In this document: one piece after another, positions 6,511 to 38,040 of the stretch
Layout of the letters: every line of letters starts with the position of its first letter
Numbering within the stretch: the stretch's first letter is position 1
Assembly (NCBI GenBank): GCA_001871195.1
Contig: MNXA01000021.1
Coordinates: 1-63,252, forward strand
DNA: 63,252 bases
Direction of reading: 5' to 3'
Source: Zetaproteobacteria bacterium CG1_02_55_237
GTDB taxonomy: Bacteria; Pseudomonadota; Zetaproteobacteria; Mariprofundales; Mariprofundaceae
Notes under the pieces: model-generated
What the model saw: only the letters and a program-made list of their open reading frames with translations
The model's database searches: none
What the model was told of the DNA's origin: nothing
Position numbers and translations under genes: made by a program

Positions 6511-6980
6511 TTGGGCATATCGATATCGTCGTCATCCTGATGCGTATCGCTGTCAAGGCGGCCGGCGCTTTTGGAACCATAGAGATTGGTCATGAAATAG
6601 ATGAAGCCTGCGGCGATCAAGGCATACACGGCGGCAGCAACATGCCCCCAGGTAAACCAGGCGCGCGGAGCATCCGGGCGATCCCCCCAGAAGGGTAGAG
6701 TCAGACCAAAGGCAACCATCAACACCACAATGATAATGCCGATAAACCATGCCGGCACACGACGCTGTGAATCCGGGATGTTTTCAACCAACTCCCAGTC
6801 CTCAAGTCCACGTCTGTTCTTCCGGTCCTCATCCGAGGCGTAGCCGAAATGATCTTCGGGAATCTTGCCCCATTCCTTGCTAACCGGTGCTGTCGGCCTT
6901 GCTGCCTCTTCCGGCTGCTCTTTCGTCTGCCCGTCGTTTTCTTTCATATTCTTCTGATACCTCGTTGCTTTGCCGATCAT
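6507..6980 (-). CDS. Two-helix membrane protein of oxidase operon, unknown function
   Basis: Encodes up to 157 residues. The N-terminal half is hydrophilic and charged; two transmembrane helices follow (VPAWFIGIIIVVLMVAFGL and a second around AAAVYALIAAGFIYFM), ending in an acidic tail. The WELVENIPDSQRRVPAWFIG stretch before helix 1 recalls the membrane-entry segment of CcoP-type subunits, but no haem motif is present. The ATG at 6980 overlaps the ccoG stop in an ATGA junction; an internal ATG at 6947 is an alternative start. It might be an accessory oxidase subunit or assembly factor. Confidence 0.7.
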   Translation of the reverse strand: MIGKATRYQKNMKENDGQTKEQPEEAARPTAPVSKEWGKIPEDHFGYASDEDRKNRRGLEDWELVENIPDSQRRVPAWFIGIIIVVLMVAFGLTLPFWGDRPDAPRAWFTWGHVAAAVYALIAAGFIYFMTNLYGSKSAGRLDSDTHQDDDDIDMPK

Positions 6981-8302
6981 AAGCTGGTTGGAGATTGAGA
7001 TTTTGCAAAATGCACAACCTGAAACTTTTTCGTCCAGCCGTCATCCGCAGTCACCACCACCCAAAAGCGATACAGGCCCTCAGGGAGGCCGTCGCGGACA
7101 TAGAGCACCACATCCTGACGACCCGCGCTCTCAAACTGCACTGCGTCCTTTTCCAGCGAATATTGACTGTCATCCAGACCTTCGACGCGAATATGCATCT
7201 GTTCAGGGTGGTTGACCTTGTAGGCAATATTGATGCGGTAATCGAGCAATTGATCGCCCTGCTGCGCTTCACCGCGATACACGGAGAAAGAGGCCGGCTC
7301 ATAGCTGACAATACCGTATGCAAACATCCCCGCACCAATCAGGGTGGCGAGTGTAGCTGCGCGCGCGCGACTGAAAAATGAACCAAGCGCGCCGCGATAT
7401 TTCCCCTTCCACTCGTCGCCAAAGCTGAGGCGAAGCAGGCCGGGGCCCTGCAGCTTTTTGCTCTTGCTGTGCAACTCATCGCAGGCCACCACGCATGCGC
7501 CGCAATTAACACAGCTGTCGAACACTTCCGGCTGACGGGGATCAATATCGAGGAAGCAGGAATCCACACAGTAGTTGCAGTTGCTGCAATGGTCCGAGCG
7601 CGAGGCATCGTAGGAAACATGCAGGGTATCGCGGGTCTTGAAGGAATGTTGCCAGACACGGTAAATGCACATGTATTTGCACATCAGGTGACGAATCGCC
7701 ACGATATCTATCAGCATGACGAACACGCAGACCATGTAGATCCAGTGCAGCCCACCGGCCAGTTCCTCGTCATATTGAAAGGAAACAAACGACCAGATGG
7801 CCTGCGGTGAATAGAAATAGAACATCGGAATCAGCGCATAAACCAGCGAGGCACCAAACAGCAGCGACCCGAGTATCAGGTAATTCAACAGTGATTTACG
7901 CCGCACCGCGATCTGCATGCGGGTACCCGTCGTATCCATCATCTTGGCGCGCCTGCCGAGCAGCCGATCCGTCAGATTATTGGCCCATTCCGATACCGTA
8001 TTTTGCGGGCACATCCAGCCGCAGAAAACCGATCCGACGAGTGAATACATCATGACCAGGAGACTGGCGATGAATATCCAAAAACCCATGATAATGAACA
8101 TGTCGGAGAACCAGACCAAGCGGTCCCACATCAACACACCGCCTGCTGCAACATCGATGCGAAACAGCCCGCTGGCCGGAATCAGCACCAGCAGAATCAG
8201 GGTGGCAATCTGCATGTAGCGGCGCGCCGGTCCCAGAGTGGTCGCACCGGGAACGTGTTCTTCAATAACAGGGATCTTGCTTAGTGTTTCATTGGCAGAC
8301 AT
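6977..8302 (-). CDS. ccoG: Cytochrome cbb3 oxidase accessory protein CcoG
   Basis: Encodes about 441 residues. CcoG (FixG/RdxA) is a membrane Fe-S/copper reductase required for cbb3 oxidase copper delivery. Visible features are several transmembrane helices, the FCGWMCPQNTVSEW motif, and a ferredoxin-like segment with two cysteine clusters (CSNCNYCVDSC and CVNCGACVVAC). A C-terminal periplasmic immunoglobulin-like domain follows the last helix. The start at 8302 has AAAGGA seven bases upstream and is preferred over an in-frame codon at 8344 inside the upstream gene. Confidence 0.93.
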   Translation of the reverse strand: MSANETLSKIPVIEEHVPGATTLGPARRYMQIATLILLVLIPASGLFRIDVAAGGVLMWDRLVWFSDMFIIMGFWIFIASLLVMMYSLVGSVFCGWMCPQNTVSEWANNLTDRLLGRRAKMMDTTGTRMQIAVRRKSLLNYLILGSLLFGASLVYALIPMFYFYSPQAIWSFVSFQYDEELAGGLHWIYMVCVFVMLIDIVAIRHLMCKYMCIYRVWQHSFKTRDTLHVSYDASRSDHCSNCNYCVDSCFLDIDPRQPEVFDSCVNCGACVVACDELHSKSKKLQGPGLLRLSFGDEWKGKYRGALGSFFSRARAATLATLIGAGMFAYGIVSYEPASFSVYRGEAQQGDQLLDYRINIAYKVNHPEQMHIRVEGLDDSQYSLEKDAVQFESAGRQDVVLYVRDGLPEGLYRFWVVVTADDGWTKKFQVVHFAKSQSPTSL

Positions 8303-8324
8303 CTGAGTTTCCTTTGCATAAATG

Positions 8325-10976
8325 CTATCTTTGGCGTACGTCAAAAGCCAGCGGACTTAGGCTTGCAAGCCGCTGCCGCCACTGCTCAGCTGCTTCGGCA
8401 TTGCCAGCCTGCGACTCCAGTTGCCACATGGCACGTATGCTGGCCTCATGGTCCGGGCGCAGCACCAGAATACGCTGCAGAGCTTCTCTCCTGCCCAGCC
8501 CCTGCGGATTGCCGTTTTCAAGGCTGGCAAACATCCTGTCGGCCAGCGCAAAAGCCGGCCAGCGATCATCGGCATTGGCCCGGCGAGCCAGCTGCGCCCA
8601 CTTCATCGCCTGCGCTTCATCACCACCAAGCTCCGCCTGCCACAGGCGAACATCCAAAGCACTTGCCGCCCATGCACGTTTAAAAGTGGTGAAATCCTCG
8701 GCCTCGACATGCAGCACAGCAGCTGCCTGCTCTGCATCCTCGCGCCAGGACAACATCCAGCGCCACATGGCAGAGGGATCGGCACCACCGGCGTAGCGCA
8801 CACGCGGCAGTGCGAACTCAATCACCGGCGCCCACTCGTCCTGCACTTGCACATCACCGGGAAACTCTGGAATCATTCCCCAGTAGCGCCCGAGCCATGT
8901 CCACATGCCCTCGCCACCTGTCGCGTCATCGGCAGATGCCGGCGGCATCTCCCGCCAGGCCTGTAATAAACGGGAACTCTGTATCTCACCCTGCTTCACA
9001 CCGACAAGACCCACGCGATAACCGTCGAGAAACAACAGCGCCAGATCATGCTCAGTGGAAAAAACACTGCGAAAGCTGTTCAATACCACCTTCAACATGG
9101 CCACATCGAATTGGTTGAGCGCTATCCATTGAACAAAAATACCGCCCGGCGCGAGCCGTTCTCTTGCCCTGCTGAATTGCTGCACGGAAAGAAGATTGGC
9201 GCGCCCGACCATATCGGGATGAAAGAGATCGCCGACAATCACATCGTAGTGCGCCGTATCGCTGCGCAGAAAGCGCCGCGCATCATCGCGCAACACACGC
9301 ATGTCGGCCATCACGCCGCCATTCACCGCTGCAAACGATCCGGATGCAGCAGCAATCGCCCCAGCCGACAATTCCACAGCAGTGCGTTGCAGTCCGTAAA
9401 AAGGAAGCGAGCCGGAAGCCGTGATTCCCGTACCAAGCCCGAGAAACAGGATAGAACGGGCCTCCGGATGCAAGAGCAAAGGAAGTCGTGCCTGATTCTT
9501 CTGCACGGTGACGGCTGTCGGATCACTGGATGCATCCATACGCTGCAAATCCGAGAGCAAAAGCCGCTGCCCGGATGGCTGTTCAACCACATGCGTCAAA
9601 GCCACGGCATCCTCGTAGAGAGACAGATCATGCGATGCCGCCAGCGCAGGTAGCAGACTGGCTACCGGTGGTAGCTGCCGTACAGGCCACAACAGTAGCA
9701 GCACAACAGGCAGGACCAGCCAGTAGCGCACGTCTTTCACCCAGCGCATACCACAGATAAAGAGAAGCAGTGCCCCGACTCCGAGTGAGGCTGCCGCACC
9801 CAGCCATGGCAGCAGAACAAAACCGGCCACGATGGCGCCCAACCCTGCCCCGATGCTGTTAGCGCCATACCACCAGGCACCGCTCGTGGTGCCGCCTGAA
9901 TCGTTTTCTGCTTCTTCAAAACGCCGGGCCAGAAGCGGTAGCCATGCGCCAAACGCCAGGGTCACCGGCAGGGTCAGCAACAACACCACCCCACCCTGCA
10001 TCAACATACCGCTGAACAGGGAATCAAATTCCGTTCGATTGGCCCACTGACTGACAGTCGGAAGAAAATACTGCCCGGCAATGGCAAGTGTCGCCGCAAT
10101 GGCCGGCAGTATATTTAACCAACGAGCCACGTGTCCTGCCGAACCCAGTCGTCGGGCCAGCACACTACCCAGCCCGATACCCGTGAGAAAAACAAGCAGC
10201 AGCACCGCCAGCACATATTCGGTGCGCAACAACACCATGCCGAACAAACGGCTCCAAATCACTTCGAGTATCAGTGCGGCTGCGCCAATACCTGCATAGG
10301 CCAGCAGATCAGCAAAGGGAGGCCGCAACAGACGCCCGCGCTCAGCCAAGGACTCTTCACTCTTGGACGGCAGGTTCACAGACAGCAGCCATGCCAGAGC
10401 CGCCAGCAACAAGCCGAGAGTTGCCACGGCAAGAAGCGCAGCGCGCCAGCCGAATGCCGGAAGCAGGAATAAGGGCAGCACAGCGCCCAAGGCACCACCC
10501 AGAGCATTGATGCCATACAAACCGCCCAAAGACATGCCCAGCACGCGCGCCCCCTTCAGCGCGAGCGGAAATGCATAACCCATGGCCAGCGCAGCCGGAA
10601 ACAGCAGCAACATAAGCGCCATGCCCTGAACTCCCTGCCAGAGACCAATGGAAAGATCACCAGCAAGGCTTAAAAGACCGGCATCCAACCATGGCATGAT
10701 GAGAGGAAGTGTGAGGGCATAGAGGGCAATGCCCCCTTCAAGAACGGCCAGCAAGCGCAGCGCGCGAGCTGCGCTCATAGCCCGCCCGTAACGCGCGCCG
10801 GCAAGACTCCCTGCACCGAGACCCGCCATGAATGCAGTAACGGTCAATACCACGCCGAAGATACTGATTCCGAACAGCAGGGAGAGCATGCGTGTCCAAA
10901 GGATTTCGTAGGCCAGTGCGGTAATTCCCGTTCCGCCATAGACGAGCAACAGGAGGAAGCGGGAACGCTGATTCAC
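8325..10976 (-). CDS. Large multi-spanning membrane protein with spermidine synthase-like domain
   Basis: Encodes 883 residues. The first ~450 residues form about a dozen or more hydrophobic helices with small-residue-rich transporter-like repeats (the opening GGTGITALAYEILWTRML is typical of fused spermidine-synthase-like proteins). From about 455 a Rossmann methyltransferase fold follows, with the nucleotide-binding region ILFLGLGTGITASGSLPFY and DVIVGDLFHPD, and then a helical, TPR-like C-terminus rich in Ala and Arg. The actual reaction of such fusions is not established; aminopropyl transfer is only implied by the fold. It lies in the oxidase maturation operon, 22 bases upstream of ccoG. 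Confidence 0.8.
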   Translation of the reverse strand: MNQRSRFLLLLVYGGTGITALAYEILWTRMLSLLFGISIFGVVLTVTAFMAGLGAGSLAGARYGRAMSAARALRLLAVLEGGIALYALTLPLIMPWLDAGLLSLAGDLSIGLWQGVQGMALMLLLFPAALAMGYAFPLALKGARVLGMSLGGLYGINALGGALGAVLPLFLLPAFGWRAALLAVATLGLLLAALAWLLSVNLPSKSEESLAERGRLLRPPFADLLAYAGIGAAALILEVIWSRLFGMVLLRTEYVLAVLLLVFLTGIGLGSVLARRLGSAGHVARWLNILPAIAATLAIAGQYFLPTVSQWANRTEFDSLFSGMLMQGGVVLLLTLPVTLAFGAWLPLLARRFEEAENDSGGTTSGAWWYGANSIGAGLGAIVAGFVLLPWLGAAASLGVGALLLFICGMRWVKDVRYWLVLPVVLLLLWPVRQLPPVASLLPALAASHDLSLYEDAVALTHVVEQPSGQRLLLSDLQRMDASSDPTAVTVQKNQARLPLLLHPEARSILFLGLGTGITASGSLPFYGLQRTAVELSAGAIAAASGSFAAVNGGVMADMRVLRDDARRFLRSDTAHYDVIVGDLFHPDMVGRANLLSVQQFSRARERLAPGGIFVQWIALNQFDVAMLKVVLNSFRSVFSTEHDLALLFLDGYRVGLVGVKQGEIQSSRLLQAWREMPPASADDATGGEGMWTWLGRYWGMIPEFPGDVQVQDEWAPVIEFALPRVRYAGGADPSAMWRWMLSWREDAEQAAAVLHVEAEDFTTFKRAWAASALDVRLWQAELGGDEAQAMKWAQLARRANADDRWPAFALADRMFASLENGNPQGLGRREALQRILVLRPDHEASIRAMWQLESQAGNAEAAEQWRQRLASLSPLAFDVRQR

Positions 10977-10996: not shown

Positions 10997-11398
10997 TCAG
11001 TAGGGCCAGAACCAGGCAATGGAGGTGGCCGCATGCACCGCCGCCAGAGTCAGACTCAAGCCGGCGCTGATCAAGTGCGCCACAAAAACATCCTTGTCGA
11101 AAACAACCATGGCTATGCCCAGACTACCGGTGAGAAAGAGAAGAATGAGCAGTGAAATTCCCATGATAAAGAGTATCTGGTGTTTGCGCTTGGTCTCGAT
11201 GCGCCGTTCGGGTGCTTCCTCATCATCGCCGGCAAACTGCTGCATCACCGCCTCAGCGGACACCTGTGCTCCGCCAGCAACAGCTGTCACTTCGGGAGAG
11301 ACTGAATTTTCAGCCAGTGCACGCTGACCCGGCAGAAGACAAAGCAGGCAAAGCAGCAACAATAGCGGGATCATGCGCACCGGGGAGCAATCAATCAT
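10997..11398 (-). CDS. Signal-peptide membrane protein, unknown
   Basis: Encodes about 133 residues: an N-terminal hydrophobic signal (LLLLLCLLCLLPGQRALA), a polar acidic middle and two C-terminal transmembrane helices. The start at 11398 overlaps the previous ORF by eight bases; an in-frame codon at 11467 lies deep within that gene and is less likely. No family recognised. It is conserved in position within the oxidase operon and might be a small structural or assembly subunit. Confidence 0.65.
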   Translation of the reverse strand: MIDCSPVRMIPLLLLLCLLCLLPGQRALAENSVSPEVTAVAGGAQVSAEAVMQQFAGDDEEAPERRIETKRKHQILFIMGISLLILLFLTGSLGIAMVVFDKDVFVAHLISAGLSLTLAAVHAATSIAWFWPY

Positions 11399-11648
11399 GC
11401 TTTGTTCCCGTCTCGTCGCCCCCACCCCTGACATCGCGCTCCTCAGGCTTATCCCCCCGCATGGCATTGCGCAGGTGAATAATGGCAGAAAGAATCATCG
11501 GAGCGAAAACCAGAAAGAAAAGAAAAACGAAAATCATCCACGGCGTATCAATGGTTACGTGCAGATAGCGGTAGCTATCCACGGCCATGGCTTCCGATGA
11601 CCAGAAGCAAAGCAGCGTGGTCAGCAGAAGATAAGATTTCAGATTCAT
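11391..11648 (-). CDS. Small membrane protein, unknown
   Basis: Encodes 85 residues: signal-like N-terminus ending in SSEAMA, one transmembrane helix (WMIFVFLFFLVFAPMILS) and a charged cytoplasmic tail rich in Asp, Glu and Gly. It starts directly after the stop codon of the sulfatase-modifying-factor-like gene and overlaps the next gene, so it is strongly coupled in the operon. No family recognised. Confidence 0.65.
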   Translation of the reverse strand: MNLKSYLLLTTLLCFWSSEAMAVDSYRYLHVTIDTPWMIFVFLFFLVFAPMILSAIIHLRNAMRGDKPEERDVRGGGDETGTKHD

Positions 11649-12722
11649 TTATTTCTCCTCATTCGCCACGACATCGGCCGCACAGCGGAAGCCGAAAAAG
11701 TCTGAGGCATAATTGGGCATGGAATAATTGCGGTGGTAAGTATAGGACGAAAATGGATCGCTTTTCCACGACCCGCCGCGCATCACAAAATAAACCAGCC
11801 TTTCAACTTCATTCGAGCCGCGTTGATAATCCGGATCGATATCCTTGGCTTGAAATATCTCTCCGGAAGCCGGAGTGCCCGGATATGGGGTAAATTGATC
11901 AGCCACCCATTCCTGAACATTGCCTGCCATATCCATCACGCCATAAGGACTGGCACCGTTCGGATAGGCATTTACCGGCGTGGTACGACCAACTTTGTAA
12001 TAGGTATTCAGATTTTCCGGGTGCATCGCCGAACCCCACGGCCAGCTTCGCCCATCGGTTCCACGCGCAGCCTTTTCCCATTCAGCCTCTGTCGGCAGAC
12101 GTTTACCCGCCCATTCGCAGTAATCCCGTGCGTTGTACCAGGACACCATGGTAACCGGGTGAAGCTCAAGCCCTCGCGGGATATGACCATCCTTCCAGTT
12201 CAGTGGCGGACGATATTTTCCGGAAGCAACAAACCGGGCGTACTGTGCCTGAGTCACAGGGAATTTGTCGATTCGATAGGCATGGGTACGAACCTGATGT
12301 GCCGGTTTGTTCTGTTCATTGGTGCGCGGGTCATCACTGCCCATGGTGAACACACCGGCAGGAATGGAAATCATCCATTCCACATCACGCCATTGTTCGT
12401 CGCCAAGCAATGCCCGCGCCTCATCCGGTGTATAGGTACGAATGCCGGCGCCATATTTTTCGTTGGCCTCCTGCACGTAAATCTCTTCTCCCGCCGCACG
12501 GATATGCTCATGCATGTCCCGAACATCATAACCGGCCTTGCCGCGCATCTCATCCATGCGCATTGAGCCTAATTCCATGACGTGAAGAGAGCCGCCGACC
12601 ATGGCGATGGTAATACAGACAACAAGGGTGGCGCTTAACCAGCGTTTACGGCGACGTCTTTCGGCCGGAGTTATTGGGGTGCGCTTCACCTTAGCGACCG
12701 GAACCTTCCTCAAAATCGTCAT
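11649..12722 (-). CDS. Membrane-anchored formylglycine-generating-enzyme-like protein (SUMF1/FGE-sulfatase fold)
   Basis: Encodes about 357 residues. A basic cytoplasmic N-terminus and one transmembrane anchor (WLSATLVVCITIAMVGGSL) precede an FGE-sulfatase domain (about residues 120-350) with family motifs IPAGVFTMGS, VTQAQYARF, WYNARDYCEWAGKRLPTEAE, GVMDMAGNVQEW and MRGGSW. The fold is shared by formylglycine-generating enzyme, EgtB and PvdO. No sulfatase gene is present in the window, so sulfatase activation is unlikely to be its job; a role in oxidase or cytochrome maturation is inferred from the operon. GTG at 12689 is an alternative start directly after the upstream stop codon. Confidence 0.82.
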   Translation of the reverse strand: MTILRKVPVAKVKRTPITPAERRRRKRWLSATLVVCITIAMVGGSLHVMELGSMRMDEMRGKAGYDVRDMHEHIRAAGEEIYVQEANEKYGAGIRTYTPDEARALLGDEQWRDVEWMISIPAGVFTMGSDDPRTNEQNKPAHQVRTHAYRIDKFPVTQAQYARFVASGKYRPPLNWKDGHIPRGLELHPVTMVSWYNARDYCEWAGKRLPTEAEWEKAARGTDGRSWPWGSAMHPENLNTYYKVGRTTPVNAYPNGASPYGVMDMAGNVQEWVADQFTPYPGTPASGEIFQAKDIDPDYQRGSNEVERLVYFVMRGGSWKSDPFSSYTYHRNYSMPNYASDFFGFRCAADVVANEEK

Positions 12723-13203
12723 CGGGCAAGGATTCAGAATCGGCATGGTGCGGCACCACACCATCATCCCATGCATAACGTTTACGAATGAATATTTCGC
12801 CTATAAATCCGCCAATCGCACAAAATTCCATTTGCAGAATCACAAACATGATCCACATGCCCCAAGGCAGCAGTTGCGCACCAGCAGCCATATCGGCATA
12901 GGAGGGATGCTGGTAATGCCACAACATGACAAAGGCAGGTGGAAAATGGGCCAGATACTTGCCACCGAAGCCATAGATCATACCGATGGCAATACCGACA
13001 GCCACAGGAAGAGCGCTCATCGCCACGATCCATGCCATATTGAAGCTGGCCAGGCCCATGAAATATTCGAGACGTACATCGAGGAGCAACATTCCGGCTT
13101 CGTAGAGTAGCACGCCAGCAACAAAGGCGGAGATTCCCCTCAACCAGTACGGCGCCCACGTGTAACCAACGGCCGAGACTGCCTTGCTCTGTTGTTTGCC
13201 CAT
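12691..13203 (-). CDS. Four-helix membrane protein of oxidase operon, unknown
   Basis: Encodes 170 residues with about four transmembrane helices and an acidic C-terminus (DDDFEEGSGR). Histidines and tryptophans cluster near helix ends (MLWHYQHPSYAD), which could indicate haem or metal contact, though nothing identifies a cofactor. It lies between a membrane cytochrome c and the FGE-like gene, overlapping the latter by about 30 bases if the ATG is used there. Confidence 0.68.
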   Translation of the reverse strand: MGKQQSKAVSAVGYTWAPYWLRGISAFVAGVLLYEAGMLLLDVRLEYFMGLASFNMAWIVAMSALPVAVGIAIGMIYGFGGKYLAHFPPAFVMLWHYQHPSYADMAAGAQLLPWGMWIMFVILQMEFCAIGGFIGEIFIRKRYAWDDGVVPHHADSESLPDDDFEEGSGR

Positions 13204-13253: not shown

Positions 13254-13745
13254 TTACTTACCCGTCAGTTTTTTCTGCTCAGCACTGATTGTCTCGTCCA
13301 GATACCAGTCCTTTACCCGCAGACTGGCGAAATAAGCGGCTAAGACTTTGCGTTCCTTTTCAGAAAGGCTGGCAAAGGAAGGCATCTTGTATTTTTCCTT
13401 CATCCTTGAGGGCAGTATCTCCTGCGGATTTTCGGAAGAAAAGTAGCGATACAGCCATTCTTCATTGCGCAGGGAGCCAATGCCATCAAGGCTTGGCGCT
13501 GGCACGCTTTGATACACGCTCTTCACCGACCAGATGGTATGACAATTACGGCATTGAAGGCTGCGATACAAATCCGAGCCCGCCCTTTCAAGATCTGGGT
13601 CGGCAGTGGTGTAAAACGGCAACTCATTATTGGCATTTTGAACAGACGGTTTGCCCATGGATTGCACGATGGCAACAATTAGAGCCCCTGCAAAAAGGAG
13701 AATGACCGTATTGACTACGGTCATCCAGTTGATTTTAGCCAGCAT
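13254..13745 (-). CDS. Membrane-anchored monohaem cytochrome c
   Basis: Encodes 163 residues: an uncleaved N-terminal anchor (about 8-29), then a class I cytochrome c domain with CRNCH at 65-69 and a probable Met ligand in YKMPSFASL. The pattern of a membrane-tethered cytochrome with the motif shortly after the helix is that of CcoO/CcoP/NorC-type subunits, so this could substitute for the missing CcoP as electron entry. Three bases separate it from the CcoS-like gene. Confidence 0.85.
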   Translation of the reverse strand: MLAKINWMTVVNTVILLFAGALIVAIVQSMGKPSVQNANNELPFYTTADPDLERAGSDLYRSLQCRNCHTIWSVKSVYQSVPAPSLDGIGSLRNEEWLYRYFSSENPQEILPSRMKEKYKMPSFASLSEKERKVLAAYFASLRVKDWYLDETISAEQKKLTGK

Positions 13746-13748: not shown

Positions 13749-14027
13749 CTAGTTCTGCGCCCGAGCGGCAGCCTCTTTTTCCGCAAGAACCTCTGTGCGG
13801 CGTTTCTCCTGCCGTGCATTCACTTCCTGGGATTTGGCAAACTCTTCAGGTTTCATTTTATCTTTGTCGTTTTCATCGAAAACCAGATATTTGATGTCTT
13901 CGTCAAACTGTTCATTGCGGGCAGCCCAGCGAATGCCGAACACGACACCAACCAGAATGGCAGCTCCGCTGAGTAGCCAGATGTAAATCGTCCAACCGTC
14001 CTGTAATTCAACTCCAAACATTTTCAA
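13749..14027 (-). CDS. CcoS-like cbb3 oxidase maturation protein
   Basis: Encodes 92 residues: one transmembrane helix (IYIWLLSGAAILVGVVFGI) directly followed by RWAARNEQFDEDIKYLVFDEND. This matches the CcoS pattern in which a single helix ends in a W-A-x-R-x-x-Q-F-D-D segment and a conserved FD(D/E). CcoS is needed for cofactor insertion into cbb3 oxidases. A charged, probably helical C-terminal tail of about 35 residues is longer than usual for CcoS. GGAGG lies a few bases before the ATG. Confidence 0.65.
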   Translation of the reverse strand: MKMFGVELQDGWTIYIWLLSGAAILVGVVFGIRWAARNEQFDEDIKYLVFDENDKDKMKPEEFAKSQEVNARQEKRRTEVLAEKEAAARAQN

Positions 14028-14054: not shown

Positions 14055-14363
14055 TTAGAATAAAACACCGTCAAGCAACTGCACTGCTGCAAATATTGAT
14101 GCAGCGATCACGCCCAGGATAATCATGCCAAACAGGACATATTCACCCCTTTTTATTTTCTCACCCTTGGTAGAACTGATGAAAGACCAGACAATGCCTA
14201 CAAATACAGCGATAGCAATCATCATAAAGATAAAAATCGCAACGCTATAGCCATGGCTACGCATGCTTTCAATACCCAGATCAAAGGTTTGATAGGTTTC
14301 ATCCGCTGTAGCGGCTTGAGCAGATATCGCAGAAAATATTAAAGCAGTCATGTGCGGAAGCAC
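14055..14363 (-). CDS. Small two-helix membrane protein, first gene of the maturation operon
   Basis: Encodes 102 residues from GTG 14363, chosen because AGGAG lies eight bases upstream; an internal ATG is at 14351. A signal-like start (cleavage after ISAQA possible) is followed by two transmembrane helices. No family recognised. It lies immediately downstream of the terminator for the ccoN operon, so it starts a separate transcription unit. Confidence 0.65.
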   Translation of the reverse strand: MLPHMTALIFSAISAQAATADETYQTFDLGIESMRSHGYSVAIFIFMMIAIAVFVGIVWSFISSTKGEKIKRGEYVLFGMIILGVIAASIFAAVQLLDGVLF

Positions 14364-14497: not shown

Positions 14498-14632
14498 TTA
14501 AAACGAGTTCTTACGCGGATCCGGTGAACCTTTCTTATGATTATCCACAAAGAAGCTGTAGATGATCGGTACAACCAGTGCAATTGTCGTGACAATCAAG
14601 CCACCGATAAATGGGTTATCCAAATCAATCAT
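14498..14632 (-). CDS. Tiny CcoQ-like membrane peptide
   Basis: Encodes 44 residues (begins MIDLDNPFIGG, ends RKNSF) with one transmembrane helix (about 9-28) and a basic, polar tail. AAGGAG sits seven bases before the ATG, and the gene fits exactly between the 217-residue oxidase-operon protein and the terminator. Size, topology and position match CcoQ, the small stabilising subunit of cbb3 oxidases, but sequence identity to CcoQ cannot be asserted. It is too short for most gene callers. Confidence 0.72.
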   Translation of the reverse strand: MIDLDNPFIGGLIVTTIALVVPIIYSFFVDNHKKGSPDPRKNSF

Positions 14633-14643: not shown

Positions 14644-15297
14644 TTAGTGAGCAATCGTGTGATCAGGGCGCCATGAGAAGTGCGGCAACCGTTTCACAGT
14701 AATAATAACAGCCAGGCAGAAACCAATGAAGTACCAGAAAGAAATCTGATAGCCCTTATCCCACCAAGGCTGTTTGGCAATCACGGTGCCGTCCGGCTGG
14801 ATGTTGAAGAAGTTCGACTTGACCACATTCGGGCCAATAACGCTGTACTCTTCAAGATCAACACCGGCACGCTGTAACTCAATAATTGCCGGTCCAATCA
14901 CCCGCAGCTGATCCAGATCAATCGGATGCTGAGCCCGCTGGAAGGTGTACTTCGAATCGAAGTGAGCCAGCGAGTCCTCAATCAGTGCCATTGCCTTCTG
15001 GTTCGCAGCATCATGAGTGATCGTACGATCATTCATCACTTCCTGCACCATGGTGCTGTTCATCAACGACACGTAGTCGAGATAAATAGCCGCAGTCGGA
15101 CGCTGTCCGTACAGAGGGAAGGTAATGGCGATTGCTGTTGCAAAGGTCAGCAGCAGCAGACCAATCACCGGACGTGGAAGCGGATTGTTGTTCTCCGCAA
15201 TTCCGCCCAAGCTCTCGTGTTCCCAAGTATGCTTAGCTTCCTTGTTCTGGTCATCCGTAGTCAATGAAAACAGCGGATTATTAAATGTCCATCCCAT
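14644..15297 (-). CDS. Two-helix oxidase-operon protein without haem motif (CcoP position)
   Basis: Encodes 217 residues with one transmembrane helix near 45-63, a periplasmic domain of about 115 residues and a second helix near the C-terminus (ISFWYFIGFCLAVIITVK). It sits directly after ccoO where ccoP is usually found, but lacks any CxxCH motif, so it cannot be a dihaem CcoP. The domain mentions no recognisable cofactor site. It probably is a structural subunit of this unusual oxidase; that is inference from operon position and topology. Confidence 0.72.
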   Translation of the reverse strand: MGWTFNNPLFSLTTDDQNKEAKHTWEHESLGGIAENNNPLPRPVIGLLLLTFATAIAITFPLYGQRPTAAIYLDYVSLMNSTMVQEVMNDRTITHDAANQKAMALIEDSLAHFDSKYTFQRAQHPIDLDQLRVIGPAIIELQRAGVDLEEYSVIGPNVVKSNFFNIQPDGTVIAKQPWWDKGYQISFWYFIGFCLAVIITVKRLPHFSWRPDHTIAH

Positions 15298-15309: not shown

Positions 15310-16245
15310 TTATTTCAGATTGATGACGAAGTCGATGAGTTTGCGTGCCTCACTATCGGCAGCAGGCATCGGCACCGCAGGCGGATAAATGCTTTCGCCA
15401 CGTGCATATGCCAGATACTTCTCATCCCATCCTGGCAGATCAACTGCATTGCCATCCGCATCCACGTCGCCCCACAGGTAATCGTAGCGCGGCATAATAG
15501 AATGTGGCTGCACAAGGCGTGGGTTGAAGAAGTGCATCACCATCCACTCACGCGATGAGTTGCGCGAACCAACGTGCAGCAGATCAGGGGCCTTGCGGTC
15601 GGAACCGAAGGTGGTCGGGCTTTCACCGTTAAAGTCACCCACCAGCGGCGGACGACCGAACGACTGCCAATCCTGTGTCTGCTCAGGCAGCAGGGTATGG
15701 CACCACCAGCAGCCTTCACGCACAAACATGGTCTTGCCGGAACCTGCCAGCAATTTCTCGTCAGCAGCCTTCAGTGTTGCATCCGCAGTCCAACCCTTGG
15801 TTGCGGTTGCAAACTCGATGTATGGAACGTCATCAGCAGTAGAGCGAACAAGGAATACACCACCCTGTGCCTCATCAGCCTGACCGATCTTACCTAACTC
15901 TTCCGAAGCCTTCTGCACGTCATCGCCCAGAATGCCGTCGTGAGTCAAGCCGCTCGGGAAATGTGTCCCGGCCGGAAAAACAAACGCGTCAGTCTTGTCG
16001 ATGGCCTTACCGGTCATCGGGTCCTTGGTCAACACAACCTTGACGGGCTTGTCCTTACCCTGCAGGAATGGGTCGTAGTAGTTGAAGCCAGTCTCCCAAC
16101 CGTAGGTCAACTGCTTCTCCAGAGCGATTTTTGTCGAGGACATCGACGAAATATCAAGGCCTGGCAGAATGATGGTAACAAACATCGACAAACTCAGCGC
16201 AAAGCCAAACATCCAACATCCGATTCTATATTCTCTAAATGCCAC
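15310..16245 (-). CDS. ccoO: Cbb3-type cytochrome c oxidase subunit II (CcoO), long form
   Basis: Encodes 311 residues. An N-terminal anchor (about 10-28) precedes a periplasmic domain with the haem motif CWWCH at 179-183 and the CcoO-like surroundings FVREGCWWCHTLLPEQT and HSIMPRYDYLW, where Met is the distal ligand. CcoO transfers electrons to CcoN. Canonical CcoO is about 200 residues with the haem close to the anchor; here some 120 extra residues (30-150) are inserted, which is unusual. Follows ccoN by 68 bases. Confidence 0.88.
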   Translation of the reverse strand: MAFREYRIGCWMFGFALSLSMFVTIILPGLDISSMSSTKIALEKQLTYGWETGFNYYDPFLQGKDKPVKVVLTKDPMTGKAIDKTDAFVFPAGTHFPSGLTHDGILGDDVQKASEELGKIGQADEAQGGVFLVRSTADDVPYIEFATATKGWTADATLKAADEKLLAGSGKTMFVREGCWWCHTLLPEQTQDWQSFGRPPLVGDFNGESPTTFGSDRKAPDLLHVGSRNSSREWMVMHFFNPRLVQPHSIMPRYDYLWGDVDADGNAVDLPGWDEKYLAYARGESIYPPAVPMPAADSEARKLIDFVINLK

Positions 16246-16313: not shown

Positions 16314-17720
16314 TTAACGCGTGTAGGCGATTTCAGCCGGCTGACGACCAACAGGCACTGGATCACCAGCACGTGCGGTCATAATCATATTGTACAGCCA
16401 GATGATATTACCGAAGAACACCATGGTGCCACCCAACCAGCGAACGATCATGTAAGGATGCTCTGCGATCACAACGTCCACATAAGGAACCTCGTAAATC
16501 TTGGCAGCACCCTGGATCAGGCCGGAAATGGTCATCGACGTCCAGTACAGCGAGAAGCCGATCAGCAGCATCCAGAAGTGGAAGTTGGCCAGCGATGCGG
16601 ACCACAGCTTGCGACGCAGCAACACCTGCATGCCGTAGTACACCGAGGCAGCTTCAGCAAAGGTCGAGAAGCCGAGCAGAGCCAGATGGGCATGTGCCAC
16701 AATCCAGCCTGTACCATGGATGTACCAGTTGATGGCACGAGTCTGCTGGAAACCACCCTGCATGTTCAGCGGAATAGCAAGCAGCACACCGGTGATGGTG
16801 AACTTGATCTCGATATTCTCGACGAACAAGGCCCAACGACCCTGCATGGTCAGCAAGATGTTACACACATAGGCAACAGCCGGCACCAGAATCAGCACGC
16901 CTTCCACAGACGCGAAGGACTTCAGCCATTCCGGAAGCGGTGAGCTCATCAGATGATGGGCAGCCGGCGTGGAGTAGAACACCACAATGGACCAGAAGTG
17001 CAGATGACCCACACGATGCGAATACAGCGGGTTACCGGTGATCTTCGGCACGATGTAGTAGGTAATAGCAGCAGCAACCGGGGTAATCAGCAGACCCAGG
17101 ATGTTATGTGCGAACCACCATGTCATGTATGCCTCGTTCAGACCGGTCAAATGGAGCCATTCAGGAGTGTTACCGATAAGGAACACAATGATGGTCATGA
17201 ACATACAGCCGGCGAAGAACCAGTTGGTGGTATAGATACCCTGTGTACGACGATTAACGATCGTCATCCACACGTTCAGGGACCAAGGCACTACCATCAC
17301 AAAGGCAATGTACAGGTCGATTGGCCAGATATGGTCGGAATACTCACGGCCGGAAGTAACACCGGACCAGAGCAATGCCAGAGCCAAGCACAGGCCCACA
17401 TTATACAGCAAGCAATTCCAGACGCCGAGTTTCTCGGACCACAGCTTGGTATTACCCAGAGCCGGGGTGATGTACATCATGGAAGCAGCAAAAGCCATGG
17501 CAATCCAGCCGAAAATCACGGCATGCACATGGACCTGACGCATATGACCGAACTGCAGCGAATACAGGCCATGGAACAAGTCAGGAAAAGCGAGCTTGGC
17601 AGCATTAAAAGACCCAAGACCTGTTCCGATAACGAACCAGGCAATGGACGATATGCCAAAGAAAATCGCCGCAGTACCCTGCGGGATATCATCTTCTTTT
17701 GAAAACAAATATTTCAGCAT
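16314..17720 (-). CDS. ccoN: Cbb3-type cytochrome c oxidase subunit I (CcoN), divergent
   Basis: Encodes 468 residues, about twelve transmembrane helices; catalytic subunit of a C-family haem-copper O2 reductase. Ligand residues are present: RQVHVHAVIFGW (low-spin haem His), WWFAHN (CuB His), FYSTPAAHHL (two CuB His, with the Tyr six residues upstream that is cross-linked in this family) and IVAHAHLALLG (haem His pair). The presence of the Tyr supports oxygen rather than nitric oxide reduction. The HVHAVIFGW motif differs from the HTNAVIFA of typical proteobacterial CcoN, so it belongs to a divergent branch. Confidence 0.92.
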   Translation of the reverse strand: MLKYLFSKEDDIPQGTAAIFFGISSIAWFVIGTGLGSFNAAKLAFPDLFHGLYSLQFGHMRQVHVHAVIFGWIAMAFAASMMYITPALGNTKLWSEKLGVWNCLLYNVGLCLALALLWSGVTSGREYSDHIWPIDLYIAFVMVVPWSLNVWMTIVNRRTQGIYTTNWFFAGCMFMTIIVFLIGNTPEWLHLTGLNEAYMTWWFAHNILGLLITPVAAAITYYIVPKITGNPLYSHRVGHLHFWSIVVFYSTPAAHHLMSSPLPEWLKSFASVEGVLILVPAVAYVCNILLTMQGRWALFVENIEIKFTITGVLLAIPLNMQGGFQQTRAINWYIHGTGWIVAHAHLALLGFSTFAEAASVYYGMQVLLRRKLWSASLANFHFWMLLIGFSLYWTSMTISGLIQGAAKIYEVPYVDVVIAEHPYMIVRWLGGTMVFFGNIIWLYNMIMTARAGDPVPVGRQPAEIAYTR

Positions 17721-17879: not shown

Positions 17880-18146
17880 CTATTCCTCCTTCCGCAGGCC
17901 TTCAAGCAAAGCATGCTGCTTGAGTGCATAACCGAGAATCAACGCAAATGCGATACCAAAGATAAACATGATCCAGTCTGCCGTACCCTGATAGGTGCGC
18001 GGATCGTAGGGGTCCATAAACCAAAGACCAGCCTCACCGAACGGCCCACGGCCAACAGCCAGCAAAAACGCACAGGTAAACACTGAACCGTTACCCATGC
18101 CTGTGGTCATTCCGGCAATGATTGTCAACCAGATTGAACTTTTCAT
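17880..18146 (-). CDS. Small two-helix membrane protein, first gene of ccoN operon
   Basis: Encodes 88 residues with two transmembrane helices (SSIWLTIIAGMTTGMGNGS, and ADWIMFIFGIAFALILGYAL) joined by a hydrophilic loop. A GAGG-type ribosome binding site precedes the ATG, and the following 35-residue gene starts three bases after the stop. Function unknown; co-transcription with ccoN is likely. Confidence 0.68.
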   Translation of the reverse strand: MKSSIWLTIIAGMTTGMGNGSVFTCAFLLAVGRGPFGEAGLWFMDPYDPRTYQGTADWIMFIFGIAFALILGYALKQHALLEGLRKEE

Positions 18147-18567: not shown

Positions 18568-19032
18568 CTACTTATACTTGTCCAGCGCCTTGATGACTGC
18601 CATAAAATCATCTTCGATAAACTGTTTGCGGTGAAATACATATTGGCGCTTGGTGCCCATGGCATCCATGCCGGTGAGACCAAATGATTTACCCGCCTGA
18701 TCCGCAAAAAAGCGAATATCCTTCATCAGGGATGCGTATTGCCCGCCCTTCAGCTTCATGCGCACACGCTCACGATTAATATCCAGAGACACCGGAGCCT
18801 GCGGATGAATCAGCAGACGGCGCATCACCCGCCCTCCACCGACCATCATAAAAAAGAAGCCCAGAAACATCAGCGCATAGCCTATCCACTGCTCATCGCC
18901 ACCGGCATACCACAACTTCATCCCCCAAAGCAGAAGCACACCAACGGTGGGAACATACAAAGCCAGATCCCATAAGGTGCCGGCCTTGTCCGGCCGAAGA
19001 TCACACTGTACTTCCTGCCAGTTGCGCGCCAT
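18568..19032 (-). CDS. Two-helix membrane protein of the mini-oxidase-like operon
   Basis: Encodes 154 residues. Two transmembrane helices lie around 25-42 and 50-66 (a PH-like or DUF-type arrangement), followed by a soluble C-terminal domain (about 75-154) with basic strands and GKSFGLTGMDAMGTKRQY. It starts one base after the thioredoxin-like lipoprotein gene and is the last gene of this operon. No family assigned; an assembly or anchoring role for the neighbouring complex is possible. Confidence 0.62.
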   Translation of the reverse strand: MARNWQEVQCDLRPDKAGTLWDLALYVPTVGVLLLWGMKLWYAGGDEQWIGYALMFLGFFFMMVGGGRVMRRLLIHPQAPVSLDINRERVRMKLKGGQYASLMKDIRFFADQAGKSFGLTGMDAMGTKRQYVFHRKQFIEDDFMAVIKALDKYK

Positions 19033-19566
19033 TTATTTCCCCTGCCCCGTCTGCTTAGCCTCACCGGTCAAATCGGCCAGTATCGGATCGATCTCCTGAT
19101 AAAGCATGCGCCCCGGATATACCACTTCCACATTGCCCTGCGCATTGATCACAAAGGTCCACGGCTCACCGCGCACCTGGAAGGCATCGTAGGCCTCGGG
19201 GTTGTAGTATTGATCCATATGCAGGAACAGAACCTTGTGCTCGTATTTGTTGAGCATCTCCTTCATCAACTGCAGCTGCTTGTCGCACTGCGTGCAGTGA
19301 CCCGGCGTGGCAAACTCAAGCACAATCGGCTTGTTCAGCTTGAGCGCTTCATCAACGGACAGTTCATACATGCGCGGGTCGGGATAGCGATAACTGGTCA
19401 ATTTGGCCATATCGCCACCCACATCGGCCAGCGTCTTGGTCTTCAACGACGGTACCGGCTTGCCCTGCATGAATACCCCGCCACCACCAACACTGCCAAA
19501 ATCCATGTCGCACGCACCAAGTGCGGCAACACCCAGCAGCATCAAGCCAAGCGCAAGGGATTTCAT
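19033..19566 (-). CDS. Thioredoxin-fold lipoprotein (CxxC)
   Basis: Encodes 177 residues with a lipoprotein signal (lipobox LGAC, Cys19). The thioredoxin-like domain has FATPGHCTQCDKQ (Cys91, Cys94), a typical redox site, and the cis-Pro region RGEPWTFVINAQG. Such envelope thioredoxins keep the cysteines of apocytochromes reduced for haem attachment or handle copper-site thiols. It overlaps the half-length oxidase-like gene by four bases, implying a role with that complex. Confidence 0.85.
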   Translation of the reverse strand: MKSLALGLMLLGVAALGACDMDFGSVGGGGVFMQGKPVPSLKTKTLADVGGDMAKLTSYRYPDPRMYELSVDEALKLNKPIVLEFATPGHCTQCDKQLQLMKEMLNKYEHKVLFLHMDQYYNPEAYDAFQVRGEPWTFVINAQGNVEVVYPGRMLYQEIDPILADLTGEAKQTGQGK

Positions 19567-20078
19567 CGTGATTGCCGCCAGCCGGCACAGGTGCGGAAAA
19601 TGTTATAGGCCCATATGCAGTTGGCCAGCAGCACCAGAGTGCCGAAGATGCCCATCACCGCAAGCCATGGCCGAACCAGGACTTCCACTTCAGCCGGCGT
19701 CATGGTCACACTGGCCATACCACCGATGGTGCCCGCTACGCTGAAGAACACCACCATGCCGAGTAAGCCAAAGTTATGCGTCCAGAAATGCAGCTTGACC
19801 AGCGGCATACTGTAGATCGGCCGCCTTACCAGGCGTGGGATGATGTAGTACACCGCAGCAAAAATAGCCATCTCCACCCAGCCCAGCAGGTTGATATGCG
19901 TATGAGCGCGGACAATAAGCTTGCCGAACATGCGATGATCAACGAAATGCCTGAACTCATGAATACCACCCATCAGGGCACCCCATGAGAACCCGATGAT
20001 GCTGTAGATAACACAGGCAAATACAAACCAGAGCGTGTATTTTACGTATTCCTCATCTTCCCATGGCTGGTAGTTCAT
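19563..20078 (-). CDS. Half-length haem-copper oxidase subunit I-like protein
   Basis: Encodes 171 residues with about four transmembrane helices. Two segments recall CcoN/NorB: RAHTHINLLGW (compare VHVHAVIFGW of the CcoN in this window) and YYIIPRLVRRPIYSMPLVKLHFW. Only the first third to half of a full subunit I (460-480 residues) is represented; the CuB and high-spin haem ligand helices are absent, so oxygen or NO reduction is not expected. It may bind a b-type haem as an electron relay or sensor. Four-base overlaps on both sides bind it to the cytochrome c and thioredoxin-like genes. Confidence 0.72.
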   Translation of the reverse strand: MNYQPWEDEEYVKYTLWFVFACVIYSIIGFSWGALMGGIHEFRHFVDHRMFGKLIVRAHTHINLLGWVEMAIFAAVYYIIPRLVRRPIYSMPLVKLHFWTHNFGLLGMVVFFSVAGTIGGMASVTMTPAEVEVLVRPWLAVMGIFGTLVLLANCIWAYNIFRTCAGWRQSR

Positions 20079-20695
20079 GGCTTCTTCATCTCCTGAGTTG
20101 CGGCATCATTGGCGCGCTTGAACGCATCCGGATCATCGCGCACATCTTTGTATTTTTCTTTCCATTCCTTCGGCGCCCACGTCTTGACCATTGAATCGAT
20201 GAACGGCGAATCTCCCTTGGGGGGAATCGGAGCAGAAGAAGAACCCTGCTCGGATTTCAACTCCGACAGAAAAACGGCAAGGGCATGCAGATCCTCAGCA
20301 GGCAGCTTCGCCACATAGGCCGCAGAAGTCTGCCCTGCCTTATGGTCCATGGTTGCCGCCGGATAGTTTGTTTCAGGATCCTGCAGGAAGGCAAACATCC
20401 ACTGCATGGTCCGGCGCGAGCCGATGCCATCCAGATCCGCCGTCTGCCCCATATTGGTGCCGTTACGCAGGGCGCGATGACAGGTAGTGCAGCCGTTGGT
20501 GCGGAACAGATAGGAGCCGCGCTGACCCTCGGCAGACAGATTTGCTGTTGTCTTGGTTTCAAATAAAGGCTTGTCGGAGTTGGCTATGAAAACCTGCATG
20601 ATGATGTAGGCGATCACCGCAAACACGACAAAAACACCGGCTACGGTAAAGAGAATTTTCTCCCCGGGCTTCAGTGGCTGTTTATTGCTTGCCAT
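20075..20695 (-). CDS. Membrane-anchored cytochrome c (NorC/CcoO-like)
   Basis: Encodes 206 residues from ATG 20695, chosen for the AGAGAG upstream; longer in-frame starts exist to 20773. One anchor helix (14-37), then a haem motif CTTCH at 69-73 in GSYLFRTNGCTTCH, the spacing and context seen in NorC and CcoO. A Met in NYPAATMDHKAG may be the distal ligand. It is the first gene of a four-gene operon and probably donates electrons to, or accepts them from, the half-length subunit I-like protein that follows. Confidence 0.83.
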   Translation of the reverse strand: MASNKQPLKPGEKILFTVAGVFVVFAVIAYIIMQVFIANSDKPLFETKTTANLSAEGQRGSYLFRTNGCTTCHRALRNGTNMGQTADLDGIGSRRTMQWMFAFLQDPETNYPAATMDHKAGQTSAAYVAKLPAEDLHALAVFLSELKSEQGSSSAPIPPKGDSPFIDSMVKTWAPKEWKEKYKDVRDDPDAFKRANDAATQEMKKP

Positions 20696-22537: not shown

Positions 22538-22614
22538 GGATGGAATTCATCATACCGACACATTTAATATATTAGCTATTGAATATATATTGCGAATCGA
22601 ATATCTTTCGCCGC

Positions 22615-22926: not shown

Positions 22927-22936
22927 GGAGGCTGGC

Positions 22937-25391: not shown

Positions 25392-25396
25392 TCCCG

Positions 25397-34223: not shown

Positions 34224-35012
34224 TTAGTCGCGGCTTGGTGAACGCGGATTACCCGGCGTTGTTGGCTTGGCCAGTGTCAGGAATGCGGCGAGGTTCTGGA
34301 TATCCTCATCCGTCAGGTTCTTGGCCACTGCGCGCATCTGACCCATGTAGTCGTTGGTGCGTGCGTTATCTGCCTTGCTGGCAATCTCTTCGGCAGTAAG
34401 CGTTTTGCTACCAAACTCATTCGCTGCATTGCGGAACGAGGTCAACTCATGCTGCAGGTAAACGTAGTTCTGACCACCGACAGCTGGATACATACGGCCA
34501 GCGGAACGACCGTGGAAACCATGGCAGCTCTCGCAAGCAGGAACACCATGATCAGGAGCTCCATACTCAGCAATCATCTTGCCCTTCGCCGGATCACCGA
34601 CTTCGGCACCGTCACGACGCAACTGATCAAGATTGGAACCAATATATGGTGTCTTCAGGGTGTGCACATAGGAAGCCACATCCTTCATGTCCTGCTCCGA
34701 CAAAGCCTTGCCGATATCGTTCATCTGATACATCGTATCATCAGTACGTGCGCCTGATGCAAAATCAGCCAACTGCTTCAGCACATAAGTATCGATCTGG
34801 TAGGCCAAGCGTGGTGTACCCACATTGTCGTCACCCAAGCCGTCCGCAGCATGACAGCCCTGACAAGCCGGGACATCATCGCCCTTACCAAACTGGTAAA
34901 TAACACGGCCCCTGTCGACATTGCCCAGTCCTTCCTCAGCACTGACAGTCGCCGGCGCAACAAAGCAAGCAGCAATTGCCACAAAACTCGTGGTAATTAT
35001 TATCCGTTTCAT
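34224..35012 (-). CDS. Dihaem cytochrome c4-like protein
   Basis: Encodes 262 residues with a signal peptide (cleavage after TVSA). Two homologous cytochrome c domains carry CQGCH (50-54) and CESCH (160-164), each with a downstream Met (MYQMNDIG and YMGQMRAVAK). This is the layout of cytochrome c4, a periplasmic electron shuttle to terminal oxidases. A strong terminator follows. Upstream lies a 45-residue membrane peptide likely in the same transcript. Confidence 0.9.
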   Translation of the reverse strand: MKRIIITTSFVAIAACFVAPATVSAEEGLGNVDRGRVIYQFGKGDDVPACQGCHAADGLGDDNVGTPRLAYQIDTYVLKQLADFASGARTDDTMYQMNDIGKALSEQDMKDVASYVHTLKTPYIGSNLDQLRRDGAEVGDPAKGKMIAEYGAPDHGVPACESCHGFHGRSAGRMYPAVGGQNYVYLQHELTSFRNAANEFGSKTLTAEEIASKADNARTNDYMGQMRAVAKNLTDEDIQNLAAFLTLAKPTTPGNPRSPSRD

Positions 35013-35326: not shown

Positions 35327-35710
35327 TTAGTCCGGCGCAATCAATAGTGCCCCGGAAAGAAAGACAAACAAGCGGATAATAATAATACCACGACTCTGCA
35401 CACGATGACTTTCACGCGCTGTTTCATCTCTGGCAAGCAACTGACGACCTGCGAGTGCCTGCAGGACGTATAAGGAGTACAAGGTCAGAATCAGAAAAAA
35501 ATGTGTCCAGACAAGAAAAGAAAAAAGATCACCATCATCAATCAAGCGCTTTTTCCAATCGTGGGTAAGGTACAGCCAAACGGGAAATAACATGTCAAAA
35601 AGCACCACGCTGCTCATGAGCGCGATATGCCAGTTATGGCGCTTGCGCAAATAATAAGCCAGCGCCAAAACAAGGAAGCTGATCAGAACAAGAATCACGG
35701 ATAATTTCAT
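35327..35710 (-). CDS. Four-helix membrane protein, unknown
   Basis: Encodes about 127 residues from MKLSVIL with four hydrophobic helices. Histidines occur at helix ends (RKRHNWHIALM, WTHFFLILTLYSLYVL), a pattern seen in DUF420-type or haem-associated small membrane proteins, but no firm family match. It precedes no obvious partner; the cytochrome c4-like unit lies downstream. Confidence 0.6.
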   Translation of the reverse strand: MKLSVILVLISFLVLALAYYLRKRHNWHIALMSSVVLFDMLFPVWLYLTHDWKKRLIDDGDLFSFLVWTHFFLILTLYSLYVLQALAGRQLLARDETARESHRVQSRGIIIIRLFVFLSGALLIAPD

Positions 35711-35854
35711 AAGGTAGAGCCTAGCGACATTACTCAGGCACACCAGTATCGATCAGAGACACCCTGCTGCAAAATCGCCGGGCAACTCTGCTGTAGCGCA
35801 TGACTCCATGATGGGGCTATGTGCCCCGTTGTCGCCTATCACCTTCGTGTTTAT

Positions 35855-37500: not shown

Positions 37501-38040
37501 ATGTCAAACTCCCCTTCCCCCACTGGTTCAAATAACGAGCATCTTTATCTGGTTAAATTCCTGATCATGTCGGTTGTTTCGTTTTTCATCGGCACCGTAC
37601 ATGGCCTCTTGCAGGTCATCCCGTCGGTGCGCGCCTGGCTGGATTCCATCGGCAGCCCCTATGGCGGCCCTGGCCACATGATTGATCCACTGGCGCATGC
37701 CCATATCAATCTTGTCGGCGGCGTCACCATCCTCGGCATGGCCGTTACCTATTACATGCTGCCCAAAATTACCGGCAAACACATCCATTCGCACTGGATG
37801 GCCGAGCACTCCTTCTGGTGGACAACCATCGGCGTAAGCACTTTCTACACAGCCCTGCTTATCTTCGGCTTTATTGAAGGCAACCTGTGGCTGACCGATC
37901 CTGCGCAGGTTCCGGCAGTGCACAAATATTACGGACCGGTTATTTCGGTTTCCGCCAGCGTTCTTGCCGTCGGTTTCTGGTTCTATCTGGCCAACGTCAT
38001 GCTCACCCTGAAGGATATTTATAAAAAACCCTCTGCATGA
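37501..38040 (+). CDS. Half-length haem-copper oxidase subunit I-like protein (second copy)
   Basis: Encodes 179 residues from ATG 37501. About four or five transmembrane helices with LAHAHINLVGGVTILGMAVTYYMLPKITGKHIHS: the AHAHIN motif and the YYxxP loop are shared with the protein at 19563-20078 and with CcoN/NorB helix 2-3. The distal half of subunit I is missing. Other histidines (H near VHGLLQ, HSFWW, HKYYGP) could ligate a b-type haem. It overlaps the following cysteine-rich gene by four bases. Confidence 0.7.
   Translation: MSNSPSPTGSNNEHLYLVKFLIMSVVSFFIGTVHGLLQVIPSVRAWLDSIGSPYGGPGHMIDPLAHAHINLVGGVTILGMAVTYYMLPKITGKHIHSHWMAEHSFWWTTIGVSTFYTALLIFGFIEGNLWLTDPAQVPAVHKYYGPVISVSASVLAVGFWFYLANVMLTLKDIYKKPSA

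Follow-up and report, generated by a model that had tools for sequence, protein, structure and literature searches.

We found that three overlapping genes, encoding a membrane-anchored monohaem cytochrome c (cytA), a third-length homologue of haem-copper oxidase subunit I (mini) and a thioredoxin-like CxxC lipoprotein (trxL), head the operon for a complete divergent cbb3-type oxidase in the window, by which we mean the whole 63,252-nucleotide stretch of zetaproteobacterial DNA that was analysed. The proposal that mini and cytA form the c/b-haem electron-input arm of this oxidase has, in our judgement, an even chance of being right: homology, fold, invariant histidines, a shared operon, co-occurrence with CcoN and a CcoP-like subunit without haem were computed, and from these we infer haem binding, membership of the complex and the direction of electron transfer. 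The original prediction saw a stand-alone mini complex and overlooked both the oxidase operon around the cassette and a paralogue of mini at 37501-38040; because the operon is shared and mini co-occurs with the oxidase, a stand-alone complex is unsupported. The b/c-haem relay that it suggested is still the role we consider most likely, and nothing was found in favour of the NO sensor or quinol oxidase that it offered beside this.

All three cassette genes lie on the reverse strand: cytA at 20075..20695 (206 aa, with the motif CTTCH), mini at 19563..20078 (171 aa) and trxL at 19033..19566 (177 aa, with a lipobox-like LGAC and a CTQC motif). They are joined, as had been read, by four-base overlaps, both of which are ATGA (20075-20078 for cytA/mini and 19563-19566 for mini/trxL), and the AHTHINLLGW and YYxxP segments (the latter as YYIIP) are present in the mini ORF. 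A PF00115 match of 52.6 bits (cut-off 34.8, E 4e-14), conserved relatives and an AlphaFold2 model confirm that mini is not a chance ORF. It had been described as a half-length subunit I; at 171 versus 468 aa it is closer to one third, and its best match is to the C-terminal third (PF00115 profile positions 309-435 of 436; CcoN 3mk7_A residues 344-460, from mini residue 58, E 2.8e-9, for the single sequence against structures), the other two thirds of 3mk7_A being matched as well, more weakly. A reading of mini as an N-terminal half of subunit I was rejected on the PF00115, 3mk7_A and profile comparisons, and is understandable because in NorB (4xyd_A) it is the N-terminal third to which the mini profile aligns (E 9e-9) and mini recognises all three repeats. 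The length of one third of CcoN would also suit a broken or split subunit I, a reading that can be almost entirely discounted given the complete CcoN downstream and the strong conservation of mini in the best 80 of 219 loci; a separate gene for the missing part, which had been named in advance as grounds for giving up the interpretation, was not found.

Because the best match is to the C-terminal third of CcoN, H59 and H61 of mini align with both haem ligands of helix X, residues 345 and 347 of 3mk7_A, which we take to be the ligand of high-spin haem b3 and one of the two ligands of low-spin haem b, the second of that pair being His60. Thus, of the helices thought to be missing, those carrying the CuB ligands are indeed absent, but the high-spin haem helix is not. 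NorB binds FeB through three histidines and a glutamate, a set that is lacking in mini, which is one third of a subunit I only. The CuB ligands of P. stutzeri CcoN are given as His207, 257 and 258 in the portion of PMC3578206 available to us, and under the 3mk7_A alignment neither these three histidines nor His60 has an equivalent in one mini chain; the active-site tyrosine helix is also absent. Ordinary O2 or NO reduction by mini alone is unlikely because there are no CuB-ligand helices, in agreement with the original prediction.

The fold places mini in the same family as its PF00115 score, with CcoN at the top in both Foldseek and VIA. The AlphaFold2 model (46 aligned sequences, pLDDT 84.8, pTM 0.78) has four long helices and one short one, against about 12 transmembrane helices in a subunit I, and residues 41-70 around the HxH motif were modelled with lower confidence. 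CcoN chains led the Foldseek search at a probability of 1.00, but with weak E-values (0.02-0.11); VIA returned five CcoN chains at Z 10.2-10.9 and NorB 4xyd at Z 9.7, and we leaned on rows above Z 10 alone because unrelated helical bundles are mixed in at Z of about 8 to 9.

The cytochrome had been called NorC-like, and Foldseek bears this out as a NorC/CcoO-like architecture: the cytA model (pLDDT 84.8) has one N-terminal helix (10-39) and one class I cytochrome c domain, and its top matches were NorC 4xyd_B and CcoO 3mk7_B, 9g6b_B and 6xkw_o (probability 0.99-1.00, with weak E-values of 0.011-0.022). By sequence profile the picture is less clear: the top match was Alternative Complex III subunit A, with NorC at E 0.007, and a further comparison placed the NorC-like 4xyd_B at E 0.008; the FixO score was 21.2 bits, under the cut-off of 29.6, and the longer ORF form matched PF00034 at 31.6 bits. 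CxxCH is kept in cytA in 79/79 loci from the best 80 of 219, and CxxC in trxL, which matches PF00085 at 27.2 bits (cut-off 23.5), in all 80 of them. Divergent to cytA lies a MauG/dihaem peroxidase-like gene (20948-21946; PF03150, 204 bits), which is present in 1/80 loci (best 80 of 219); farther on, at 22579-28690, are an ArsR-like regulator and then outer-membrane efflux, membrane-fusion and RND-type genes, as judged by eye from the ORFs.

Downstream of trxL the same strand carries two conserved membrane proteins, p154 (18568..19032; in 79/80 loci of the best 80 of 219, with no match in Pfam or NCBIfam) and the small p88 (17880..18146; 57/80 of these loci), followed by the oxidase itself. CcoN is complete (16314..17720; PF00115, 267.5 bits; 3mk7_A, E 2e-60); its nearest relatives in the PDB are cbb3 CcoN chains, and its divergence is reflected in a ccoN equivalog score of 242 against a cut-off of 583 bits. 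It has the three CuB histidines, the tyrosine and the three haem histidines of a cbb3-type oxidase, the ligand positions (H or Y) 64, 205, 249, 255 and 256 being kept in 47/47 sequences and positions 343 and 345 in 46/47, where the sole exception is a gap. The CcoO-like monohaem cytochrome (15310..16245; PF02433, 67.2 bits) keeps CxxCH in 44/44. The CcoP-like subunit (14644..15297; PF14715 FixP_N, 19.0 bits, below the cut-off of 24.9) has CxxCH in 0/40, while the motif is kept in cytA, CcoO and cytB. We thus regard the oxidase as a cbb3 variant, because the dihaem CcoP that is part of the usual cbb3 set is missing.

The operon continues, still on the reverse strand, with the small membrane proteins p44 (14498..14632; 33/80 loci), p102 (14055..14363; 30/80) and p92 (13749..14027; weakly CcoS/FixS-like, PF03597 at 16.8 bits, below the cut-off of 23.1), a second membrane-anchored monohaem cytochrome c, cytB (13254..13745; PF00034, 28.6 bits; CxxCH in 32/32), the conserved membrane protein p170 (12691..13203; 31/80, no Pfam match), a protein of the FGE type (sulfatase-modifying-factor fold; 11649..12776; PF03781, 194.4 bits), the conserved p156 (10997..11467; 27/80), an 883-aa SpeE-like large membrane protein (8325..10976; PF01564, 20.7 bits, just below the cut-off of 22.9) and a CcoG-like [4Fe-4S] oxidase assembly protein (6977..8344; TIGR02745, E 2e-30, below its cut-off), all counts out of 80 referring to the best 80 of 219 loci. 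We know of no link between FGE-fold or SpeE-like proteins, which are regular in this locus, and oxidase biogenesis. In the whole genome of the window PF00115 was found in five places, namely a CcoN on contig C30, a protein on contig C10 (G000:C10:21214-22515) that we take from its motifs to be NorB-like, the window CcoN, mini and mini2.

The last of these, mini2, is a second third-length COX1 paralogue that keeps the HxH motif (37501..38040, forward strand; PF00115, 42.4 bits; our searches used 37492-38040, three codons longer). HxH is invariant in its 11 sequences. Compared as profiles, mini and mini2 match across 160 columns (98.5%, E 2.5e-15); when the window's own two proteins are put through plain BLASTP, they align at 25% across 106 residues. 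In the window mini2 overlaps by 4 bases a gene for p182 (38037..38585, forward strand; PF20603 'bacterial hydrolase', 34.2 bits, cut-off 27), which adjoins mini2 in 10/10 compared regions that hold mini2. Both mini2 and CcoN are found in 8/11 compared regions (L151-L157 and L144), the other three holding one end only, and between the two there are always p182, p157 and CcoG. Just past mini2 in five zetaproteobacterial regions (L151, L152, L153, L156 and L157) come a c4-type dihaem cytochrome and a DUF420-like protein, which are syntenic with two reverse-strand genes of the window: a dihaem c4-type cytochrome, probably Cyc1 (34224..35012; PF00034, 62.4 bits in two stretches), and p138, a DUF420-like small membrane protein (35327..35743; PF04238, 19.4 bits, below the cut-off of 30.5). 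Mini2, p182, the dihaem cytochrome and p138 therefore belong to the same ancestral locus as the oxidase. The block is near CcoG in related genomes, but in the window it is displaced to 34224-38585, across the oxidase operon from there, and is split into halves by what looks by eye like a sugar nucleotidyltransferase gene (36474-37370).

When named genomes were scanned with an alignment of mini, 219 relatives came up, and the best 80 loci were analysed. These best 80 come from Zetaproteobacteria (among them Mariprofundus ferrooxydans PV-1, M. erugo and strain EBB-1) and from gammaproteobacterial MAGs, one of which is a Candidatus Tenderia; the mini relatives in them show 71-92% identity. In all 80 the order cytA-mini-trxL is kept, so the two genes first paired by the original prediction do lie side by side in homologues. 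CcoN lies 1.7-5.5 kb downstream of the cassette in 53/80 of these best loci, 22/80 have less than 5 kb of downstream sequence in which to judge it, and 5/80 have at least 5 kb without CcoN; all 4 genomes tested of those 5 carry CcoN elsewhere (83-91%). A CcoN search in 20 genomes, most of them picked for a CcoN-less locus, found it at 72-94% in 14/20, one 33% match only in another, and no match at E 1e-60 in five. In PV-1 CcoN closes one scaffold, and mini is found close to the beginning of a second.

Co-occurrence also held in wider samples. Among 299 genomes of the phylum, mini was found in 44 (E 1e-30), CcoN in 41 (E 1e-140) and mini2 in 43 (E 1e-25), positives that are not independent because all are in the window's order. 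Restricted to the 239 good genomes, each of the three was found in 24; mini and CcoN occur in the same 24, and mini2, when the three lists were compared by eye, in 23 of these (G017 being without it) and in G063. Of 274 gammaproteobacterial genomes, 24 have mini at 60-80% identity; all 24 have mini2 and 22 have CcoN, which in one case lies in two frames with a stop. The mini-bearing genomes without CcoN (2/24 Gammaproteobacteria and 5/20 in the search above) weaken the case for an input arm, though they may be incomplete drafts. One of two short frames in other Gammaproteobacteria lies inside a longer, unrelated-looking ORF. Mini matched 319 plasmid records, in every case at less than 60% identity; among the 40 matches listed, those named by gene were cbb3 subunit I. 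Of three plasmid neighbourhoods, full-length genes were present in two, both taken from the mini2 search, and the third was without annotation there.

The five of the best 80 loci in which the cassette is distant from CcoN equally suit a separate complex, and count against an input arm. One could envision cytA and mini as a membrane cytochrome c:quinone oxidoreductase of their own, between periplasmic cytochromes and the quinone pool, serving for example the uphill electron transfer of iron oxidisers. Such an enzyme would make sense of a four-gene cassette that stands apart from CcoN in 5/80 loci (best 80 of 219), of a c haem beside a putative b haem, and of hosts such as iron-oxidising Mariprofundus and the organism behind a Candidatus Tenderia MAG. 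However, no quinone-site signature was identified, the role does not demand the co-occurrence with CcoN, and we consider the reading quite unlikely. Moreover, bc1 genes occur in all zetaproteobacterial groups covered by the part of PMC7029218 available, and therefore the need for such a link is not evident.

Conservation sets mini beside the catalytic subunit. H59, H61, H97 and H101 are histidine in 80/80 of the best 80 of 219 loci, which settles in its favour the conservation that the original prediction had made decisive, and H44 is histidine in 72/80 and tyrosine in 8. Median identities to the window among 39 loci taken as gammaproteobacterial (n 22-39; sequences covering less than 70% of the query were left out) are 77.8% for CcoN, 75.6% for mini, 61.4% for p92, 59.9% for CcoO, 56.1% for trxL, 53.9% for the FGE-type protein and 53.6% for cytA, with p154 at 46.4%; mini is thus held about as tightly as the catalytic subunit. 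This core-subunit pattern also speaks against a sensor of NO or redox state derived from an oxidase third and its HxH haem-ligand motif, which we think very improbable, mini having no output domain and the conserved genes tested including no regulator.

Alternatively, mini (and mini2) could be assembly factors that mimic the haem-binding third of CcoN and hand over haem b to nascent CcoN, or hold it open, assisted by trxL, CcoG and the DUF420-like protein. The strict co-occurrence with CcoN, the resemblance to CcoN's own third and the linkage of CcoG-like, thioredoxin-like and DUF420-like genes would all be expected of such a factor, and the last of these counts against an input arm. On the other hand, mini is far more conserved than trxL or p154, its gene overlaps that of a haem c protein in the style of NorC and CcoO, and to our knowledge canonical cbb3 oxidases assemble without any mini-like protein; we regard an assembly role as unlikely.

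In the input-arm reading, cytA and mini together would be a small c/b cytochrome of the membrane that reproduces the NorC-NorB and CcoO-CcoN pairing in reduced form. Electrons may enter at cytA, delivered by a carrier in the periplasm for which the Cyc1-like dihaem cytochrome encoded in this locus is one candidate, and move on from the haem c of cytA to a haem b held by mini, and from there toward the CcoO haem and CcoN. H59/H61 would bind this haem b where mini meets another mini chain, mini2 or CcoN, an interface being proposed because the partner ligand helix is missing from one mini chain. CytA and mini might thereby stand in for the missing CcoP haems, and mini itself would carry out no O2 chemistry. 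If this is true, then in an oxidase of iron-oxidising, possibly electrode-oxidising bacteria the catalytic fold recurs as two additional single thirds, each with a gene of its own, and candidate electron-entry parts can be named for an oxidase with a haem-less CcoP-like subunit.

Mini is also a direct test case for the construction of haem-copper oxidases from repeats. In profile comparisons it matched third 3 of CcoN at 98.6% (E 1.3e-15), third 1 at 93.9% (E 1.6e-7) and third 2 at 91.1% (E 1.1e-6), whereas the thirds matched one another at 1.5-56.7%; the corresponding profile scores were 44 to 98 for mini against each third and 18 to 33 between thirds. HMMs against four other subunit I proteins gave the same trend in 2/4, and for the remaining two proteins mini gave less than 5 bits with either of the first two thirds. 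Mini2 matched third 3 (96.6%) and third 2 (96.2%) of CcoN, and third 1 at just 1.8%. The pattern of mini would be expected of a homotrimer filling all three roles or of a near-ancestral unit, although a slowly evolving fragment might give the same pattern. In an IQ-TREE analysis with constraint tests (143 columns, 5000 resamplings), seven constraints and the free tree all had AU p >0.2 and the best-scoring tested tree joined mini with mini2; the trees do not decide between truncation and an ancient single repeat, and mini is not forced inside the C-terminal third. Since mini matches each CcoN third better than the thirds match each other, one may picture it, alone or with mini2, as a trimer of four-helix units forming a pseudo-oxidase barrel with interface bis-histidine haem b (H59 of one chain, H61 of the next), which would make it a present-day survivor of the ancestral single repeat. 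We hold this to be a long shot; if true, such a repeat could have given rise to the three-repeat haem-copper oxidases.

The locus probably corresponds to the distal cbb3/Cyc1 cluster of PV-1, Sideroxydans ES-1 and Ca. Tenderia electrophaga. In the passages available of PMC7029218 and PMC8788666, 'proximal' and 'distal' cbb3 forms are distinguished in Zetaproteobacteria and Sideroxydans, from which we infer that the window CcoN belongs to the 'distal' subtree of Ducluzeau et al. 2008. According to the accessible part of PMC5371394, Ca. Tenderia shows very high expression of a non-canonical complex IV-2, and its cyc1 region shares synteny with two PV-1 contigs, which fits the split of CcoN and mini over two PV-1 scaffolds. 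An excerpt of PMC3770913 gives 20 genes in common order in Sideroxydans ES-1 and PV-1, mostly hypothetical, 14 of them with Leptospirillum homologues. Two third-length subunit I paralogues are not described for this cluster in the accessible portions of PMC7029218, PMC5371394 and PMC3770913, nor did we find in the open-licence literature a description of short or truncated subunit I proteins or of the repeat idea, which is weak evidence of absence.

Among known systems, mini shares fold and sequence family with CcoN/FixN of the C-family haem-copper oxidases, corresponding to about their C-terminal third, but is one third of their length and lacks the helices that would carry the active-site tyrosine, the partner histidine of the low-spin haem and the three histidines that bind CuB. 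The NorC-NorB pair (cNOR) offers a second likeness, cytA being NorC-like and the mini profile matching the N-terminal third of NorB, whereas NorB's catalytic helices are not present in mini. In Pseudomonas aeruginosa the orphan CcoN is of full length and able to replace CcoN, in contrast to mini, which cannot replace it. In the part of PMC5697931 available to us the orphan CcoN is, like mini, a CcoN-related product beyond one operon set.
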